Shown here: positions 2 through 23,038 of the stretch, piece after piece | Layout of the letters: every line of letters starts with the position of its first letter | How positions within the stretch are numbered: position 1 is the first letter of the stretch | DNA from: Patescibacteria group bacterium | GTDB taxonomy: Bacteria; Patescibacteriota; CPR2; UBA1875; JAMCYV01 | Assembly (NCBI GenBank): GCA_023473595.1 | Contig: JAMCYV010000032.1 | Coordinates: 1 to 35,555, forward strand | Direction: 5' to 3' | DNA: 35,555 bases | Program-made: the position numbers and the translations under genes | Notes under the pieces: model-generated | Seen by the model: the letters and a program-made list of their open reading frames with translations, nothing else | Databases searched by the model: none | Told to the model about the DNA's origin: nothing

Positions 2-490
2 TTAACAACGCCTTTGCAGATGATTAACGCTTTTGCTGCAATCGCCAACGGAGGAGTTATAATGCGGCCGCAAATTATAGAAAAAATTATTGATAAGGAT
101 GGCAAGGAAGAAGAGAAACAACCCGAAGAGATTAGGAGAGTTATTTCGGATAAGGCGGCGGCTGCCATGACAGCGATGCTTGTTAGCGTGGTTGAAAAAG
201 GACATGGCACTCAAGCCAAAGTCAAAGGCTATAAGGTTGCCGGAAAGACTGGGACAGCCCAAGTCCCTTTAAAAAACGGTCTTGGATATGATCCTTCAAG
301 AAATATAGGTTCATTTATAGGCTTTGCACCGGCAATGTCGCCGGAATTTGTAGTTATGGCGAAAATTGATTCACCTAAAGGTGTTTCTTGGGCAGAAAGC
401 ACAGCCGCCCCAATTGTCGGCCAAGTTTTGGATTATTTGCTTAAATATTATCAGGTTCCACCAACAGAGTTAAGCGAATTAAACCAATAG
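2..490 (+). CDS. ftsI: Penicillin-binding transpeptidase (FtsI/PBP2-3 class), C-terminal part; 5' end outside window
   Basis: Open frame from base 2; AGKTGTAQ (KTG box) and 'AFAAIANGGVIMRP' typical of class B PBPs; first gene of a dcw-like cluster. Confidence 0.88.
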   Translation, partial: LTTPLQMINAFAAIANGGVIMRPQIIEKIIDKDGKEEEKQPEEIRRVISDKAAAAMTAMLVSVVEKGHGTQAKVKGYKVAGKTGTAQVPLKNGLGYDPSRNIGSFIGFAPAMSPEFVVMAKIDSPKGVSWAESTAAPIVGQVLDYLLKYYQVPPTELSELNQ

Positions 491-525
491 TAAAAAAGTT
501 AAAATTATACTAAAATATACGAAAT

Positions 526-1560
526 ATGATATTTGACGAGAAAACTCTGATTGTTGAAATAACAAAGATTTTGATCTTTGCCTTTGGGGCTTTTGCGCTT
601 TCTATGGCTTTGACGCCTATCTATACTCATTTTGCTTATAAAAATGAATGGTGGCGCAAAGTCAGAACTAAAGCGGTTGATGGAAAAGCGGCTCCAATCT
701 TTTTGAAATTGCATGCTGAAAAACATAAGAGACATATTCCTACTATGGCTGGGATGGTAATCCTTTTTTCAGTCAGCATTATTACTCTTATTTTTAATTT
801 AGATAGAGCTCAAACGTATCTGCCACTATTTTCGTTTATTTTTGCTGGACTTTTAGGACTTGCAGATGATTATTTTCATGTAAAAGGGATTGCTGATAAG
901 ACAGGAGGCCTAAGTGCTAGAGCCCAGGCTTTCTGGCTGACAATTATTCCTCTTCTTGGGGCTTATTGGTTTTATTTTAAACTAGATTGGAGTATTATCC
1001 ATGTTCCGGCCGTAGGTAACTTTAATATTGGTTGGCTTTATATACCCCTCTTCATTATTGTTATATTTGCGACTTCCAAGTCAGTAGGGCTTACAGACGG
1101 GCTAGATGGGCTTGCTGGAGGGCTTTTATCTCTGGCTTACGGTTCTTATGGGTTTATATCGCTTGTTCAAGGAAAATATGGACTTGCGGCTTTCTGTGCC
1201 ACGGTAGTAGGGACGATGCTGGCTTATACTTGGTTTAATATTTATCCAGCTAGGTTCTTTATGGGGAATAGCGGCTCAATTTCTTTAGGAGCGACATTAG
1301 GAGTTATTGCAATGCTTACAAATTCTGTTTTTATTCTGCCTATTATCGGGTTTGTTTTCTTTGTCGAATCTGGTTCTTCAGCTATTCAGCTTTTATCTAA
1401 GAAAATAAGGGGGAAGAAGATATTTTTATCCGCTCCGATTCATCACCACTTTGAAGCTATCGGCTGGCCGGAGACAAAAGTTACAATGAGATTCTGGATT
1501 ATAGGGGGGGTAATGTCGGTTCTTGGAATAATTATCGGACTTTTAGGAAGAGGTCAATAA
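526..1560 (+). CDS. mraY: Phospho-N-acetylmuramoyl-pentapeptide-transferase
   Basis: 344 aa multi-TM protein with DDxxK-like 'LADDYFHVKG', 'GLTDGLDGLAGG', 'APIHHHFEAIGWPETKVTMRFWI'. Confidence 0.96.
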   Translation: MIFDEKTLIVEITKILIFAFGAFALSMALTPIYTHFAYKNEWWRKVRTKAVDGKAAPIFLKLHAEKHKRHIPTMAGMVILFSVSIITLIFNLDRAQTYLPLFSFIFAGLLGLADDYFHVKGIADKTGGLSARAQAFWLTIIPLLGAYWFYFKLDWSIIHVPAVGNFNIGWLYIPLFIIVIFATSKSVGLTDGLDGLAGGLLSLAYGSYGFISLVQGKYGLAAFCATVVGTMLAYTWFNIYPARFFMGNSGSISLGATLGVIAMLTNSVFILPIIGFVFFVESGSSAIQLLSKKIRGKKIFLSAPIHHHFEAIGWPETKVTMRFWIIGGVMSVLGIIIGLLGRGQ

Positions 1561-2741
1561 TGGCAACAATTTCAAGAGGCAGGAGGCTAAGACCAGATTA
1601 TACACTTGTTATCCTTGTTCTTCTTTTATCAATTGTTGGTATTATTATGGTCTATTCTGCTTCAGTAGTCTCCAGTTATAAAGTAACAGGGGATCCTAAC
1701 TTTTATTTTACGAGGCAGCTTATAAACATTATTATTGGTATTTTTTGTCTTTTCTTTGTGTCTAGAATTCCTTATGTTTTTTGGAAAAAAGTTGCTTTCT
1801 TTGTCCTTCTTTTAGGCCTTATTCTCTCCACTTTAGTTTTTATTCCTGGATTTGGGATGAGGCATGGCGGAGCGAGCAGATGGCTGGAATTAGGATTTAT
1901 TCAACTTCAGCCATCGGAAGTCTTAAAGCTAGGTGTAATTCTTTACTTGAGTGCTTTCTTTGAAAGAGTAGGAGAAGGAGTGAAGACATACAAAGCTTTT
2001 CTTCCATTTGTTATCGTACTTGGCTTAGTGGGAACACTTATTATGCTTCAACCGGATATGGGGACTTTTATGGTGATTGCTATTTTTTCTTCAATAATGT
2101 ATTTTGTTGCCGGGGGAGGGTTAACCTACATAGGTTCTTTGCTTGTTGCAGGAATAGCTGGAATATGGACACTTATTAAAATTGAACCCTATAGGATGCA
2201 AAGATTCCTAGTTTTTTTAAATCCGAATGCTGATACTAGTGGTGCCGGCTACCAGATAAACCAAGCTCTTATTGCTATTGGTACTGGCGGACTCTTTGGC
2301 TTGGGATTCAACCAATCGAGGCAAAAATATAATTATCTTCCTGAAGCGCAGACTGATTCAATTATTGCTATAATAGGGGAGGAATTGGGATTTGTAGGAA
2401 TAGCAGTCTTAATATTTATTTTTCTTTTGCTTACAGTAAGGGGATTAAGGATCGCAAAAAAGTCTCCTGATGTTTTTTCGAGAATGTTTGCAATCGGTCT
2501 TATATCCTGGGTTGCAGTTCAATCTCTCTTAAATATAGCTGCTATGATCTCCTTGGTTCCGCTTACAGGCGTCCCATTGCCGTTTATTAGTTTTGGAGGG
2601 ACATCTGTTGTTGTTCTTTTGGTTGCTTTCGGCATTTTGATTAATATATCCAGGTTTGTGGAAGGAGGAAAGTCAAATGAGAGTCATCTTAGGAGGGGGT
2701 GGAACTGGCGGTCATATCTCACCAGTTTTAGCCGTAATTGA
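1560..2741 (+). CDS. ftsW: SEDS-family peptidoglycan polymerase FtsW
   Basis: 393 aa, multi-TM, 'LQPSEVLKLGVILYLSAF', 'LPEAQTDSIIAIIGEELGFVG', 'GVPLPFISFGGTS'; start ATG overlaps mraY stop. Confidence 0.95.
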   Translation: MATISRGRRLRPDYTLVILVLLLSIVGIIMVYSASVVSSYKVTGDPNFYFTRQLINIIIGIFCLFFVSRIPYVFWKKVAFFVLLLGLILSTLVFIPGFGMRHGGASRWLELGFIQLQPSEVLKLGVILYLSAFFERVGEGVKTYKAFLPFVIVLGLVGTLIMLQPDMGTFMVIAIFSSIMYFVAGGGLTYIGSLLVAGIAGIWTLIKIEPYRMQRFLVFLNPNADTSGAGYQINQALIAIGTGGLFGLGFNQSRQKYNYLPEAQTDSIIAIIGEELGFVGIAVLIFIFLLLTVRGLRIAKKSPDVFSRMFAIGLISWVAVQSLLNIAAMISLVPLTGVPLPFISFGGTSVVVLLVAFGILINISRFVEGGKSNESHLRRGWNWRSYLTSFSRN

Positions 2742-3849
2742 ATCTCTAGAAGGAAAAGTTAAAGATTTAGACCTCGTCTATATTGGTTCAAAGCAGGGGA
2801 TGGAAAGCATGATAATTCCAAAGACAGGCATTCCTTTTTATAGTATAAGCGCCGGCAAGTTCAGACGCTACTCCGGCGGGTTTTGGGATCTCTTAAATCC
2901 AGTCACTATTTTTAAAAACTTAGTGGATTTTGGCAGAGTTATCAAGGGATTTTTTGAATCTCTAAAATTGATAAAAAAAATAAAGCCAGATGCCATCTTT
3001 TTAAAAGGAGGCTTTGTCAGTGTTCCTCTTGGACTGGCCGCCAAAGTTCTAAATTATCCCTTTATTTTGCATGAATCAGATAGTGCACCAGGTCTTGCAA
3101 ACAGAATTTTAGCAAAGTTTGCTAGAAAAATATGTGTTTCTTTTAAGGATGATTATTTTCAACAAAATTATCCCAACAAAGTAGTATATACCGGCAATCC
3201 CGTTCGTAAGGAGCTTGTAGAGGGGGATAGAGAAAGAGGCTACAAAGAATTTAATTTAAAAGACAATTTGCTTATTATTCTTGTCATTGGGGGAAGTCAA
3301 GGATCGTTGAAAATAAACCGACTAATTGAAGAGATATTAGAAGATATTCTTTACAAATATCAATTAATTCATATTACCGGGGAGAGAGATTATGATTGGA
3401 TTGATTTTCGAGCTAAGAGACTTCCTGAAGAGTTGAGGGGCAATTATCGCTACTACAACTTCATTTCTAAAGAACTTAAAGACGCCTACAAAATTTCTGA
3501 TTTAATTATCTCAAGGGCTGGCAATAATGTTCTTACCGAGATCGCTGCGAACGGCAAGCCAAGTCTTCTTATTCCACTTCTTAGTTCTACAAGCGGCCAT
3601 CAGCAAAAAAATGCTCTTCTTTTTTCTAGAAACGGAGCCGCTTATATATTAGATGAGTCGATTGTGACAGCTTCCGAACTTCTAAGACAGATTAATTTTG
3701 TTTTAGAAAGTAAGGAAGAAAGAGAAATAATGTCAAAAAAAGCATCTGAATTTTTTGTCGCAGGGGCTTCAGAGGCTATAACTAGCGAAATATTAAGATT
3801 AAAGAAAAAGGCTTTTAAAAATGAGGGGCAGAAAGCTAAGGCAGATTAG
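2677..3849 (+). CDS. murG: UDP-N-acetylglucosamine--LPS/peptidoglycan N-acetylglucosamine transferase MurG
   Basis: 'MRVILGGGGTGGHISPVLA', 'GGSQGS', 'SRAGNNVLTEIAANGKPSLLIPL'; SD ggaagga upstream of ATG 2677; the ORF track start at 2656 is less likely. Confidence 0.95.
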   Translation: MRVILGGGGTGGHISPVLAVIESLEGKVKDLDLVYIGSKQGMESMIIPKTGIPFYSISAGKFRRYSGGFWDLLNPVTIFKNLVDFGRVIKGFFESLKLIKKIKPDAIFLKGGFVSVPLGLAAKVLNYPFILHESDSAPGLANRILAKFARKICVSFKDDYFQQNYPNKVVYTGNPVRKELVEGDRERGYKEFNLKDNLLIILVIGGSQGSLKINRLIEEILEDILYKYQLIHITGERDYDWIDFRAKRLPEELRGNYRYYNFISKELKDAYKISDLIISRAGNNVLTEIAANGKPSLLIPLLSSTSGHQQKNALLFSRNGAAYILDESIVTASELLRQINFVLESKEEREIMSKKASEFFVAGASEAITSEILRLKKKAFKNEGQKAKAD

Positions 3850-4624
3850 AAAAGGATTTTTAAAGAGAAGAAATCCCCAGATTTATTCACGGACGACTGC
3901 AATAGCGAGTGGAAGAAATCCTTTAAAAATTTTCAAATATGTTGGATTTTTTCTCTTGACTGTTTTAGTTTACATAGTTATTTTCTCCCCTGCTTTTAAG
4001 GTCAAAAAGGTCATTATCTCGGGCCTAGAAATGGCTAACAGCCAGAAGCTTGAAAAAAAATTTCTGGGAAAAAATCTAATATTTTTAAGAACTCAAGCTG
4101 TTTCAGAAAATATTGAAGGGGATCAGAAAGTAAAAGAATTGAAAGTTGAAAAAAATTACTTTTCTGGAACCTTAAGAATTATGGTTATTTTAAGAGAACC
4201 ATTTGTGATTTTAACAGAAAAAGGGAAACGCTATTTAGTTGATACCGATGGTATCCTTTTTAAGGAAATAGGGGAGACGGAAGAGAAGAGCCTTAATTTA
4301 ATAAAAATAAATAATAATTTAATAAGCTTCTCGCATAACCTGGGTGATGAACTCATTGAACAAAAAAAATTATTTTTCTTAAAAGATTTAATTAATAATT
4401 TTCCAACTAAAACTGCCGAGACTATTTCTGCTATAAGTTTCGATAATTCCAATGATGAAATCACTGTTTTAGCTAATTCTAACTACAAGATTTTCTTTGA
4501 CTTAAAAAGGAGCATTGATAGCCAAATTGAGAGTGTAGTCATGATTAAAGATGAAACAGAAAAAAGTAAAAGAAAGCTTGAATATATTGATTTAAGAATT
4601 GAAACTCGTATTTTTTATAAATAA
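3821..4624 (+). CDS. ftsQ: FtsQ/DivIB-like cell division protein (single TM, POTRA-like region)
   Basis: Basic N-terminus, one TM, 'VKKVIISGLEMANSQKLEKKFLGKNLIFL' POTRA-like start; position after murG. Confidence 0.72.
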   Translation: MRGRKLRQIRKGFLKRRNPQIYSRTTAIASGRNPLKIFKYVGFFLLTVLVYIVIFSPAFKVKKVIISGLEMANSQKLEKKFLGKNLIFLRTQAVSENIEGDQKVKELKVEKNYFSGTLRIMVILREPFVILTEKGKRYLVDTDGILFKEIGETEEKSLNLIKINNNLISFSHNLGDELIEQKKLFFLKDLINNFPTKTAETISAISFDNSNDEITVLANSNYKIFFDLKRSIDSQIESVVMIKDETEKSKRKLEYIDLRIETRIFYK

Positions 4625-15067: not shown

Positions 15068-15941
15068 AAGAATCTGGAACAAAAGCAGTAAAATCTAAGG
15101 ATAGTAAATGGAGGAAACAAGCTGTGAAGAAAAGACTTCTAATAAATGTTTCAGAGAGTAAGGCAATAAAAGATCTAAGGAGCAATATTGGGAAACATAT
15201 CCCTTGCCCAAAATGTTCTAGGAAGAAGTATGTAAGGAGACTTAAGGGCAAGGATAAAAGATACTTCTGTGCTAAATGCAGATACAAGTTTTCATTAAAG
15301 AATCTAGTGGGCTTTAAATACTCTAATCTAAACTACAAACAGATCTATCATTTACTTCATTGTTTCGGTAACAATAAATCTCATCAAGATGTCATAGATT
15401 GGACAGGAGTCTCTTATCCAACCTCAAGACTTAACTATAGTCGAATCAGAACAGGCTTAAAGCCTCATTTAGATACAGATAAACTAACCGGTAAGTTTGT
15501 TTGTGATGAATGTTTTGTAGGTAAACAAAAGACCAATAATCAGGCTATTGTAATGGGTGCCGTAGATAGCACGTTTACTAATCTTAGATTAGAAGTTATC
15601 CCAGACAGAGAACAAGACTCAATTGAGAAGTTCTTAGAGATTCATATTGAACCAACTTCTTTAATTGTTTCAGACGCTTTCTCTTCGTACTTTGATATTG
15701 GCTTTATGGGTTACAATCATTTAATTGAAAACCACAGTAAAGGACGCTTTCAAGAGACTGTGCCAATCGAGAGAGTCTGGGGACTTTTTAAAACTTCTAT
15801 TACCAGAAGCTATCATCATATTCATAAAGAAAAACTACCTGAATACCTGGTGGAATTTCAGTTTAAATTTATCCACCGAAAATACCGTAGAAACCCCCTT
15901 TATATAGCTAAAATGTTAACCAAGACTGTTCCAGATTGTTG
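15068..15941 (+). mobile_element. IS1595-family-like insertion sequence (boundaries approximate)
   Basis: Single transposase ORF bounded by inverted 11-mers AATCTGGAACA (15071-15081) and TGTTCCAGATT (15927-15937). Confidence 0.7.
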
Positions 15942-15942
15942 A
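15124..15942 (+). CDS. IS1595 (ISXO2-like) family transposase
   Basis: N-terminal zinc ribbon 'CPKCSRKKYVRRLKGKDKRYFCAKCRYKFSLK'; catalytic-region motifs 'CDECFVGK', 'IVSDAFSSY', 'IERVWGLFK'. Confidence 0.82.
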   Translation: MKKRLLINVSESKAIKDLRSNIGKHIPCPKCSRKKYVRRLKGKDKRYFCAKCRYKFSLKNLVGFKYSNLNYKQIYHLLHCFGNNKSHQDVIDWTGVSYPTSRLNYSRIRTGLKPHLDTDKLTGKFVCDECFVGKQKTNNQAIVMGAVDSTFTNLRLEVIPDREQDSIEKFLEIHIEPTSLIVSDAFSSYFDIGFMGYNHLIENHSKGRFQETVPIERVWGLFKTSITRSYHHIHKEKLPEYLVEFQFKFIHRKYRRNPLYIAKMLTKTVPDC

Positions 15943-21000: not shown

Positions 21001-21057
21001 GTTTAACTGTTCAATTGCTTATTATTTACTGTTAATTGTTATCTATTTACTGTATAA
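21001..21057. repeat. Degenerate heptad array (TATTTAC TGTTAAT TGTTATC TATTTAC TGTATAA)
   Basis: 7-nt periodicity across 21023-21057, weaker upstream; runs into the dprA stop region. Confidence 0.55.
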
Positions 21058-22115
21058 ACCATTCCGCCGAGGTTTTTGACATAACCCTTGATTTCCATCA
21101 TTGTGAGGGCTGAAGAGACTGCTTGGGACTCGATTCCTGTTGTCTTTATAATATCATCAATGTGCTTTGGCTCGCTTTCTAAAAACTCAATAATTTTTCT
21201 CTCTTCTTCAGACTTGGGGTAAACTTTCCTGGCTTCCTTCTTTTGCGGCAGGTTTTTGAGATTTAATTCTTCTAAGATATCTAGAGCATTTGCTACCGGC
21301 TTTGCTCCCATTTTAATAAGGTTGTTAGGCCCAAAGGAGTTTTTGTTGTAGATATTTCCCGGAAGGGCAAAGACATCTCTATTTTGTTCCAAAGCATCTT
21401 TTGCCGTAATAAGGGCGCCGGATTTTTCTCCAGCCTCAACTACCAAAACTCCAAGCGAAAACCCGGCAATAATCCTATTTCTTGCCGGAAAATTCTGTTT
21501 TAAAGGAGCAGTGCCAATTGAATATTCGGAGACTAAGGCTCCTCCATTTTCTACGATTTGATTTGCTAAATTTGAATTGGAAGTTGGATATGGTTTTTCT
21601 AATCCGCAGCCTAGGATTGCAATAGTTCTTCCGTGAGATTTTAAGGTAGATTCGTGAGCAAAGGTATCAATTCCTAAAGCCATTCCTGAAACTACCGTTA
21701 CTCCGGCTTGCGCTAAACCTGCAGCGATGTCTTTTGTAGCTTGGATTCCATAATCGGTTGGTTTTCTAGTACCGACAATAGCAATACATTCCTCTTCTTT
21801 CTTAAGCTCTCCTTTGTAATATAGAACAAAAGGCGGTGAAAAAATTTCCTTTAATTTTTCTGGATAATCTTTATCAAAAAAAGAGACATATTTTATCCCT
21901 TGCTTTTCTAAAAGTTCTTCTTCTTTATCACAATCAGTTTTTTCGATATGTTCAGTAATTGCATAGACCAATTTTTGGTCTATTCCGGCTTTTAAAAGAT
22001 CAGAAGGTCTGGCATACCAGATATCTTCGGCAGATTTAAAGTACGAAAAAAGCTTTTTAAAAGTTATGGGTCCGATTTTGACACATTTATCTAGAGTAAT
22101 TAGATACTTGTCCAT
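21039..22115 (-). CDS. dprA: DNA-processing protein DprA
   Basis: 358 aa; Rossmann 'AIVGTRKPTDYGIQATKDIA', 'VVSGMALGIDTFAHESTL', 'GKSGALITAKDALEQNRDVFALPGNI'. Confidence 0.95.
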   Translation of the reverse strand: MDKYLITLDKCVKIGPITFKKLFSYFKSAEDIWYARPSDLLKAGIDQKLVYAITEHIEKTDCDKEEELLEKQGIKYVSFFDKDYPEKLKEIFSPPFVLYYKGELKKEEECIAIVGTRKPTDYGIQATKDIAAGLAQAGVTVVSGMALGIDTFAHESTLKSHGRTIAILGCGLEKPYPTSNSNLANQIVENGGALVSEYSIGTAPLKQNFPARNRIIAGFSLGVLVVEAGEKSGALITAKDALEQNRDVFALPGNIYNKNSFGPNNLIKMGAKPVANALDILEELNLKNLPQKKEARKVYPKSEEERKIIEFLESEPKHIDDIIKTTGIESQAVSSALTMMEIKGYVKNLGGMVYTVNR

Positions 22116-22214: not shown

Positions 22215-22243
22215 TTGACAAATTATCCCTTTTATGCTACAAT
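22215..22243 (+). promoter_or_regulatory. Sigma-70-type promoter driving the structured RNA
   Basis: TTGACA (22215-22220), 17-nt spacer, extended -10 TGcTACAAT (22235-22243). Confidence 0.85.
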
Positions 22244-22249
22244 CCTATA

Positions 22250-22480
22250 TCAGATTGAAATATTAAGTAATTTCTCGGTTGTGGGTTGAATCCTACATGC
22301 CAAGTTCTCCTTAAGTCACCCTCCTTTAAGGCAGAGCTTCACATGTAGGATTCTCCCTGCAACAACGCCAATCTAATATATATTGAGATTTGGTCAAACC
22401 TATAAGGTAGCTTGTTCGATTATAGGGAGAAATTAGAAATTAATAGTTTAGCGTCCTTTCGGGGACGCTAAACTATTTTT
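22250..22480 (+). ncRNA. Stand-alone structured small RNA, family not identified
   Basis: Promoter plus terminator with no ORF; P1 22268-22276/22427-22435; P2 22289-22299/22342-22352 with apical 22309-22314/22326-22331; P3 22368-22374/22386-22393; P4 22399-22405/22420-22426. Confidence 0.78.
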
Positions 22481-22481
22481 A
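22442..22481 (+). terminator. Strong intrinsic terminator of the sRNA, probably bidirectional with pth
   Basis: AATAGTTTAGCGTCC-TTTCGG-GGACGCTAAACTATTTTTA, 15-bp perfect stem. Confidence 0.88.
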
Positions 22482-22492
22482 TATAGTAAATT

Positions 22493-23038
22493 CTAAGTGC
22501 TTACGTTTTTTATACCTTCCTTAAGAGATTTCTTTATTAATTTAATAGTTTTTTCGATTACTTCGTTTAGCATTCCTAGCTCTTCTTTATCGAACTTTTG
22601 CAAAACAAATTTCTCTGACGGCATAGTATCTGCTTTTTCATTCTTAATTCCTACTCTGAATCTTGGGAAACGTTCTGTACCTAAAAAATTTATCACCGAA
22701 ATTACCCCCTTGTGTCCACCGGCACTTCCCCCTTCTCTGACTCTTATGGTACCTAAATTAAGGTCGATATCGTCGTGAACCACCCAAACCCTATCGGTTG
22801 GAATATTTAAGAATCCGACAAAATTTCGAACTGCTTCGCCTGATTTGTTCATATAAGTTTGGGGTTTAATGAGCATGACATCCTGGCCTTCAATGTAGGT
22901 ATGACAGATCTCGGCTTTGAATTTCTTTGAGTATTTCCAGCTAGAATCAGCTAATCTATCCAAGATCATAAAACCGACATTGTGTCTGGTCTTTTCGTAT
23001 TTTTTATCAGGATTTCCTAAACCAACGATGATGTTCAT
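22493..23038 (-). CDS. pth: Peptidyl-tRNA hydrolase
   Basis: 'MNIIVGLGNPDKKYEKTRHNVGFMILD', 'KPQTYMNKSGEAV', 'VHDDIDLNLGTIRVREGGSAGGHKG'. Confidence 0.97.
   Translation of the reverse strand: MNIIVGLGNPDKKYEKTRHNVGFMILDRLADSSWKYSKKFKAEICHTYIEGQDVMLIKPQTYMNKSGEAVRNFVGFLNIPTDRVWVVHDDIDLNLGTIRVREGGSAGGHKGVISVINFLGTERFPRFRVGIKNEKADTMPSEKFVLQKFDKEELGMLNEVIEKTIKLIKKSLKEGIKNVST

Follow-up and report, generated by a model that had tools for sequence, protein, structure and literature searches.

A previously uncatalogued, free-standing structured RNA in the dprA-pth gap of Patescibacteria and its predicted pairing with the mraZ-rsmH-ftsL operon

The gap between dprA and pth in ultrasmall bacteria of the Patescibacteria holds a previously uncatalogued, free-standing RNA with a conserved structure, whose invariant apical loop, ACCCUCC, is complementary to sites in the mraZ-rsmH-ftsL operon of division and cell-wall genes. 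We studied this RNA in a 35,555-nucleotide stretch of a Patescibacteria group bacterium (assembly GCA_023473595.1, contig JAMCYV010000032.1, positions 1 to 35,555), hereafter the window, and in related genomes. The best explanation, which we hold to be fairly probable, is that of a trans-acting antisense RNA controlling translation of the division and cell-wall operon. Patescibacteria make up a large share of bacterial diversity and have tiny genomes and host-attached lives; to our knowledge, little is known of regulatory RNA among them, and a literature search of limited scope found no such small RNA from Patescibacteria.

The RNA lies on the plus strand between two minus-strand genes, dprA (21039-22115), which flanks it throughout the order, and pth, encoding peptidyl-tRNA hydrolase (22493-23038), which flanks it across the phylum. 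As a first-pass annotation of this gap had claimed, the plus strand bears a promoter (22215-22243) composed of TTGACA (22215-22220), a 17-nt spacer, an extended TGc element, and TACAAT (22238-22243), matching the consensus at 11 of 12 positions; it has no ORF longer than 24 amino acids across the RNA; and it carries a strong intrinsic terminator (22442-22482) in which a stem of 16 pairs (22442-22477) is followed by TTTTTATA, with the T-run TTTTTA. Transcription is predicted from the promoter position to start at about 22250, and the promoter and terminator positions, the fold z-score, and the absence of an ORF point to a transcript of ~230 nt (22250-22482). Homologs in relatives of the same order likewise have their own promoter and terminator; of 22 homologs, 20 retain the form TTGAC[A/T/C], exactly 17 nt, TG, TAnnnT, and the plus strand has T-runs after the terminator, in homologs too. 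The locus thus has the promoter and terminator of its own and the lack of an ORF that mark a trans-acting base-pairing small RNA. A protein-coding origin was rejected on this lack of an ORF and on homolog lengths, which change by non-triplets.

Nucleotide searching, the first step in finding homologs, returned relatives of the same order with the same dprA-RNA-pth setting. With a first covariance model, built from nine sequences, we recovered the RNA from 12 of the 13 order genomes, from all three other genomes of the class (a sister family), and from distant families. The second model, built from 15 sequences, was run on 389 genomes sampled from the phylum and matched 24, a count that takes in G063 and G211, which are among the weakest new matches, by model score alone. 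Nearly every homolog stands beside pth or dprA, and in those distant families that were inspected the homolog sits between mfd and pth or adjoins dprA with pth nearby. The occurrence of the RNA in several distant families of the phylum contradicts the earlier suggestion that it is lineage-specific; and because the order has a member with the label Candidatus Howlettbacteria, it is an RNA of the Patescibacteria (Candidate Phyla Radiation). Rfam 15 was searched as the first-pass annotation had proposed, and no named family matched at gathering thresholds; at permissive thresholds (E up to 10) there were only the terminator hairpin and chance scores, and the sub-threshold mir-299 and rli51 matches were rejected as being that hairpin. 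The RNA family is real and is not in Rfam, and the promoter, the Rfam negative, and the covariation described below lend good support to the annotation's view that this is a structured RNA standing alone, regulatory or housekeeping in role and belonging to no known family.

Folding of the RNA gave -87.4 kcal/mol (z = -9.25 against 200 shuffles), with z = -6.66 once the terminator was removed, and all the helices of the first-pass annotation are present and together form the minimum-energy fold of the window sequence. The covariation on which that annotation had made its structural call depend was found in two alignments. An independent MAFFT alignment had two-sided changes with pairing kept at 12 of 42 pairs, compared with 1-3 in slid controls, a level reached by none of 500 shuffles; the 15-sequence alignment, which was fitted to the model and hence leans to it, had compensatory changes at 29 of 42 pairs (slid controls, 2-6; shuffles, 0 of 500), and the RNA is therefore real. 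Covariation bears out both the P2 rod, formed by GAATCCTACATG (22288-22299) and CATGTAGGATTC (22342-22353), in which 10 of 16 pairs show two-sided compensatory changes among 15 homologs, and P3 (CCAATCT/AGATTTGG, 22368-22393), in which 4 of 6 pairs covary. The same proportion, 4 of 6, covaries in the apical hairpin CTTAA-GTCACCCTCC-TTTAAG (22310-22330).

The 3' domain differs from the earlier drawing. In an alignment that was fitted to a second structure and leans that way, pairing was kept in only 53 of 94 cells for P4 (CCTATAA/TTATAGG), in 45 of 45 for a small hairpin, ACC-TATAA-GGT, and in 45 of 45 for a CCC/GGG pairing of that second structure, so that P4 does not stand as drawn; P1 (TAATTTCTC/GAGAAATTA) is present in the minimum-energy fold of the window and has counterparts in few lineages only. 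The coaxial four-way junction proposed earlier is therefore only one of two folds that exclude each other, the more lineage-specific one, and is state A of the window species. State A pairs GTTGTGGG (22278-22285), the 5' arm of an outward extension of the P2 rod in the minimum-energy folds, with CTCCCTGCAAC (22353-22363), and it is the predicted minimum-energy fold in most species. State B takes the contested strand CTCCCT (22353-22358) from this 5' partner and pairs it with AGGGAG (22424-22429), as covariation and pairing counts indicate; CAACAA (22360-22365) pairs with TTGTT (22412-22416; 97.3% of cells paired, 3 of 5 pairs covarying), and the small hairpin (22398-22408; 100% paired, 3 of 3 pairs covarying) replaces P4. 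CUCCC/GGGAG and CAACA/UGUUG, together with this hairpin, are the better conserved 3' pairing. The duplex energies of the two states are equal in the window (state A, -11.1 kcal/mol, p = 0.02 against shuffles; state B, -11.3 kcal/mol), and both CUCCC pairings recur in most homologs, with a modest excess over shuffles in many single sequences. The 3' domain may thus exchange CUCCC between its 5' partner and the 3' GGGAG, either as a refolding step during transcription or as a switch.

The loop ACCCUCC (22318-22324), which we propose as an antisense seed, is present in 22 of 22 homologs inspected and is predicted to be unpaired, with P(unpaired) of 0.94 in the window and 0.94-1.00 in 21 of the 22 homologs (lower in G004). 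Its stem varies with compensation (CTTAAA/TTTAAG, CCTCA/TGAGG, CCTTAA/TTAAGG, GTCC/GGAC, CCTAAA/TTTAGG) and the loop stays fixed. Neither this loop nor the matching complement in the division operon was noticed in the first-pass annotation. That complement came to light in side matches of the nucleotide search in three genomes, which were rejected as second copies of the RNA; they are the rsmH-ftsL gap, carrying CTTAAAGGAGGGTGAT, the exact complement of the loop plus stem arm.

Among the 11 RNA-bearing genomes of the order whose mraZ-rsmH-ftsL operon was retrieved, nine have the loop complement within it. It lies in the rsmH-ftsL gap of eight relatives, at 29-34 nt upstream of the ftsL AUG in seven genomes and split by an insert in G009, and in the window's genome it covers the rsmH ribosome-binding site, in a 20-bp helix whose end lies 3 nt upstream of the AUG. 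Near-genome-wide helix scans covered 767 kb in the window's genome and 1.02 Mb in G002, both strands in each case. With the RNA's own locus set aside, the rsmH ribosome-binding site was the top-ranked site of the window's genome (-41.0 kcal/mol; the next were -31.4 and then -26), and the rsmH-ftsL gap of G002 ranked second (-29.2 kcal/mol), a site in the tsaE coding region being better. Some complementarity is to be expected, because the matches resemble ribosome-binding sites. Cognate duplexes have energies of -33 to -40 kcal/mol versus -14 to -18 for the 16S tail, roughly 15 or more stronger, and the target sites are moderately open (P about 0.3-0.5). The flanking pairs follow lineage (UUGCUU/AAGCAA, GCUACU/AGUAGC, GGCA/UGCC), and such changes with complementarity kept would be expected from co-evolution, in sequences that are related and hence not independent. 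Taken on sequence complementarity, targeting of the mraZ-rsmH-ftsL operon is strongly suggested. The operon site is absent from G004, which has an ordinary ribosome-binding site only, and from G005, and the other class members examined (sister family, operon arranged differently) lack an ftsL-type site after rsmH; the loop must therefore have other partners there.

Several further observations concern these loci. The insert in the rsmH-ftsL gap of G009 (L081) is palindromic, CCTGCCGGCAGGCAGG, and splits the predicted site between GGAGGG and TGA. We rejected the idea that a small leader ORF starts at the rsmH-ftsL site, since neither frames nor lengths are conserved. The second-best site of the window's genome complements the RNA loop perfectly over 16 nt and overlies the ribosome-binding site of an ORF judged by eye to be PaaX-like (175 aa; L174, minus strand, ~6048). 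Two genomes have a GGAGGGTGATCGG site a few kb ahead of 16S, with the loop match GGAGGGTGATCGGYTTTTA at L166:2548 and L203:3306; rRNA itself was rejected as a partner, GGAGGGU being absent from 16S and from the examined 23S region. The 16S rRNA match in the window's genome (L166:5911-7617) is 1707 nt long versus 1455 nt in G002, which suggests an inserted element. In the mraZ-rsmH gap (L077-L088, e.g., L086 and L087), the rsmH leader resembles another conserved structured RNA, with an inverted repeat TAGCTAGCAGCC/CTGACTGCTAGCTA around AACATCCACCTCAAATTTA..AAGCCCAA at most operon loci of the order; the repeat is also present in G001, a genome in which we found no dprA-pth RNA, and the element has no Rfam match. 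Positions 14-4624 of the window hold the rest of the division and cell-wall cluster (PBP C-terminus, mraY, ftsW, murG, and an ftsQ-like gene), and the contig with rsmH-ftsL (G000:C27) probably joins the window start, judged by gene content; the distance between the RNA gene and rsmH is 16-18 kb in G002, G006, and G011. An ORF at 15124-15942 of the window resembles, by eye, an ISXO2/IS1595-type transposase.

In the mechanism that we favor, the long P2 rod would present a hairpin whose single-stranded ACCCUCC loop and easily opened adjoining stem arm pair with AAGGAGGGU(GA) in messenger RNAs, the main predicted target in the order being the mraZ-rsmH-ftsL-pbp operon. In the window's genome, pairing would mask the rsmH ribosome-binding site; in relatives, it would fall ~30 nt upstream of the ftsL start, next to a CA/A-rich stretch and to the genuine ribosome-binding site. 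Most likely it would block 30S loading or coupling and so lower the output of the operon. We infer that the RNA is transcribed and pairs in cells, and also the direction of this control, repression rather than activation, by analogy with C-rich-loop RNAs such as Staphylococcus aureus RsaA (PMC3961350); activation or mRNA processing are other conceivable outcomes of the pairing. The exposed, conserved seed, complementary to translation start regions of mRNAs, places the RNA among the trans-acting base-pairing small RNAs, with a predicted effect on expression.

Small RNAs of the S. aureus RsaA/RNAIII type carry an unpaired C-rich motif, pair with Shine-Dalgarno regions, and block ribosome binding (PMC3961350, PMC2837412). 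The dprA-pth RNA resembles them in being structured and having an unpaired C-rich loop, with predicted Shine-Dalgarno pairing; it differs in phylum, in an apical ACCCUCC kept across families, and in that it is known here from a single contact region, and no Rfam match points to homology. DicF, a prophage-borne small RNA, targets ftsZ, and others also act on division genes (PMC5069750, PMC10907235). Like DicF, the dprA-pth RNA would be an antisense RNA directed against a division gene, here predicted to be rsmH/ftsL, but its own gene belongs to the core chromosome.

A wider anti-Shine-Dalgarno role of the loop is a serious rival, to which we give perhaps one chance in a few: as a global mimic of the 16S rRNA 3' end, ACCCUCC would bind many ribosome-binding sites or a factor recognizing the rRNA tail and so adjust translation generally, and the division operon would be merely its strongest partner here. 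The loop is invariant across the phylum and the operon target is not; CACCCUCCUUU closely resembles the tail of the same genome's rRNA, CACCUCCUUU, both sharing CACC(C)UCCUUU; and GGAGGGT precedes other starts, e.g., that of dnaB, and that of ppdK in two genomes. The loop nevertheless departs from the anti-Shine-Dalgarno in one extra C, its three Cs being strictly kept, and is presented in a hairpin by an RNA that is not part of the ribosome; GGAGGGT is not over-represented at starts relative to GGAGGTG or GGAGGAA, and in the window's genome one operon is ahead of all others by about 10 kcal/mol.

We regard as improbable a housekeeping RNA with a protein partner, i.e., a diverged 6S- or SRP-like RNA or an unknown particle, in which the loop would bind protein and the mRNA matches would be incidental. 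Deep conservation, fixed synteny, and a strong promoter would suit such an RNA, as would the recognition of SRP RNA in none of 10 genomes; the Rfam result to E 10 argues against it. The RNA is like 6S RNA in standing alone, in its similar length, and in its long rod, but it does not have a central open bubble as its main feature, and no 6S covariance-model (RF00013) match fell at its locus in 10 genomes. Sub-threshold 6S-like candidates occur on other contigs of two genomes that also carry the dprA-pth RNA (L251 in G232, E 2.5e-6; L252 in G087, E 2.1e-5) and are possibly the divergent 6S RNA of the phylum. For the small bacterial SRP RNA there was no RF00169 match, and the apical loop in all homologs is ACCCUCC and not GGAA-type; ARAGORN found no tmRNA (tRNA-like ends, tag frame) at the locus; and RNase P and tmRNA signatures lie elsewhere in G002. 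These four identities were rejected for the dprA-pth locus, in agreement with the annotation's remark that the fold does not obviously show the hallmarks of the 6S rod, SRP helix 8, tmRNA, and RNase P. A cis-acting minus-strand element, either a dprA leader or a pth trailer, is very unlikely: dprA and pth do run on that strand and the reverse strand folds (z = -8.05), but the canonical promoter and the T-runs of the homologs are on the plus strand, and in distant lineages the RNA stays where mfd or other genes replace dprA.

The translational control that we favor suggests that the RNA is a built-in brake or timer on division. More tentatively, and with less than even expectation, the RNA may be an ancient, phylum-wide, two-state riboregulator, a modified anti-Shine-Dalgarno copy that gates the division and cell-wall operon or a wider set defined by Shine-Dalgarno sequences; if so, it perhaps holds host-dependent cells in a non-dividing state. 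The dprA-pth RNA constitutes a family that could join Rfam; with its conservation, strong promoter, fixed loop, and predicted division target, it offers a testable entry into growth control in these bacteria.
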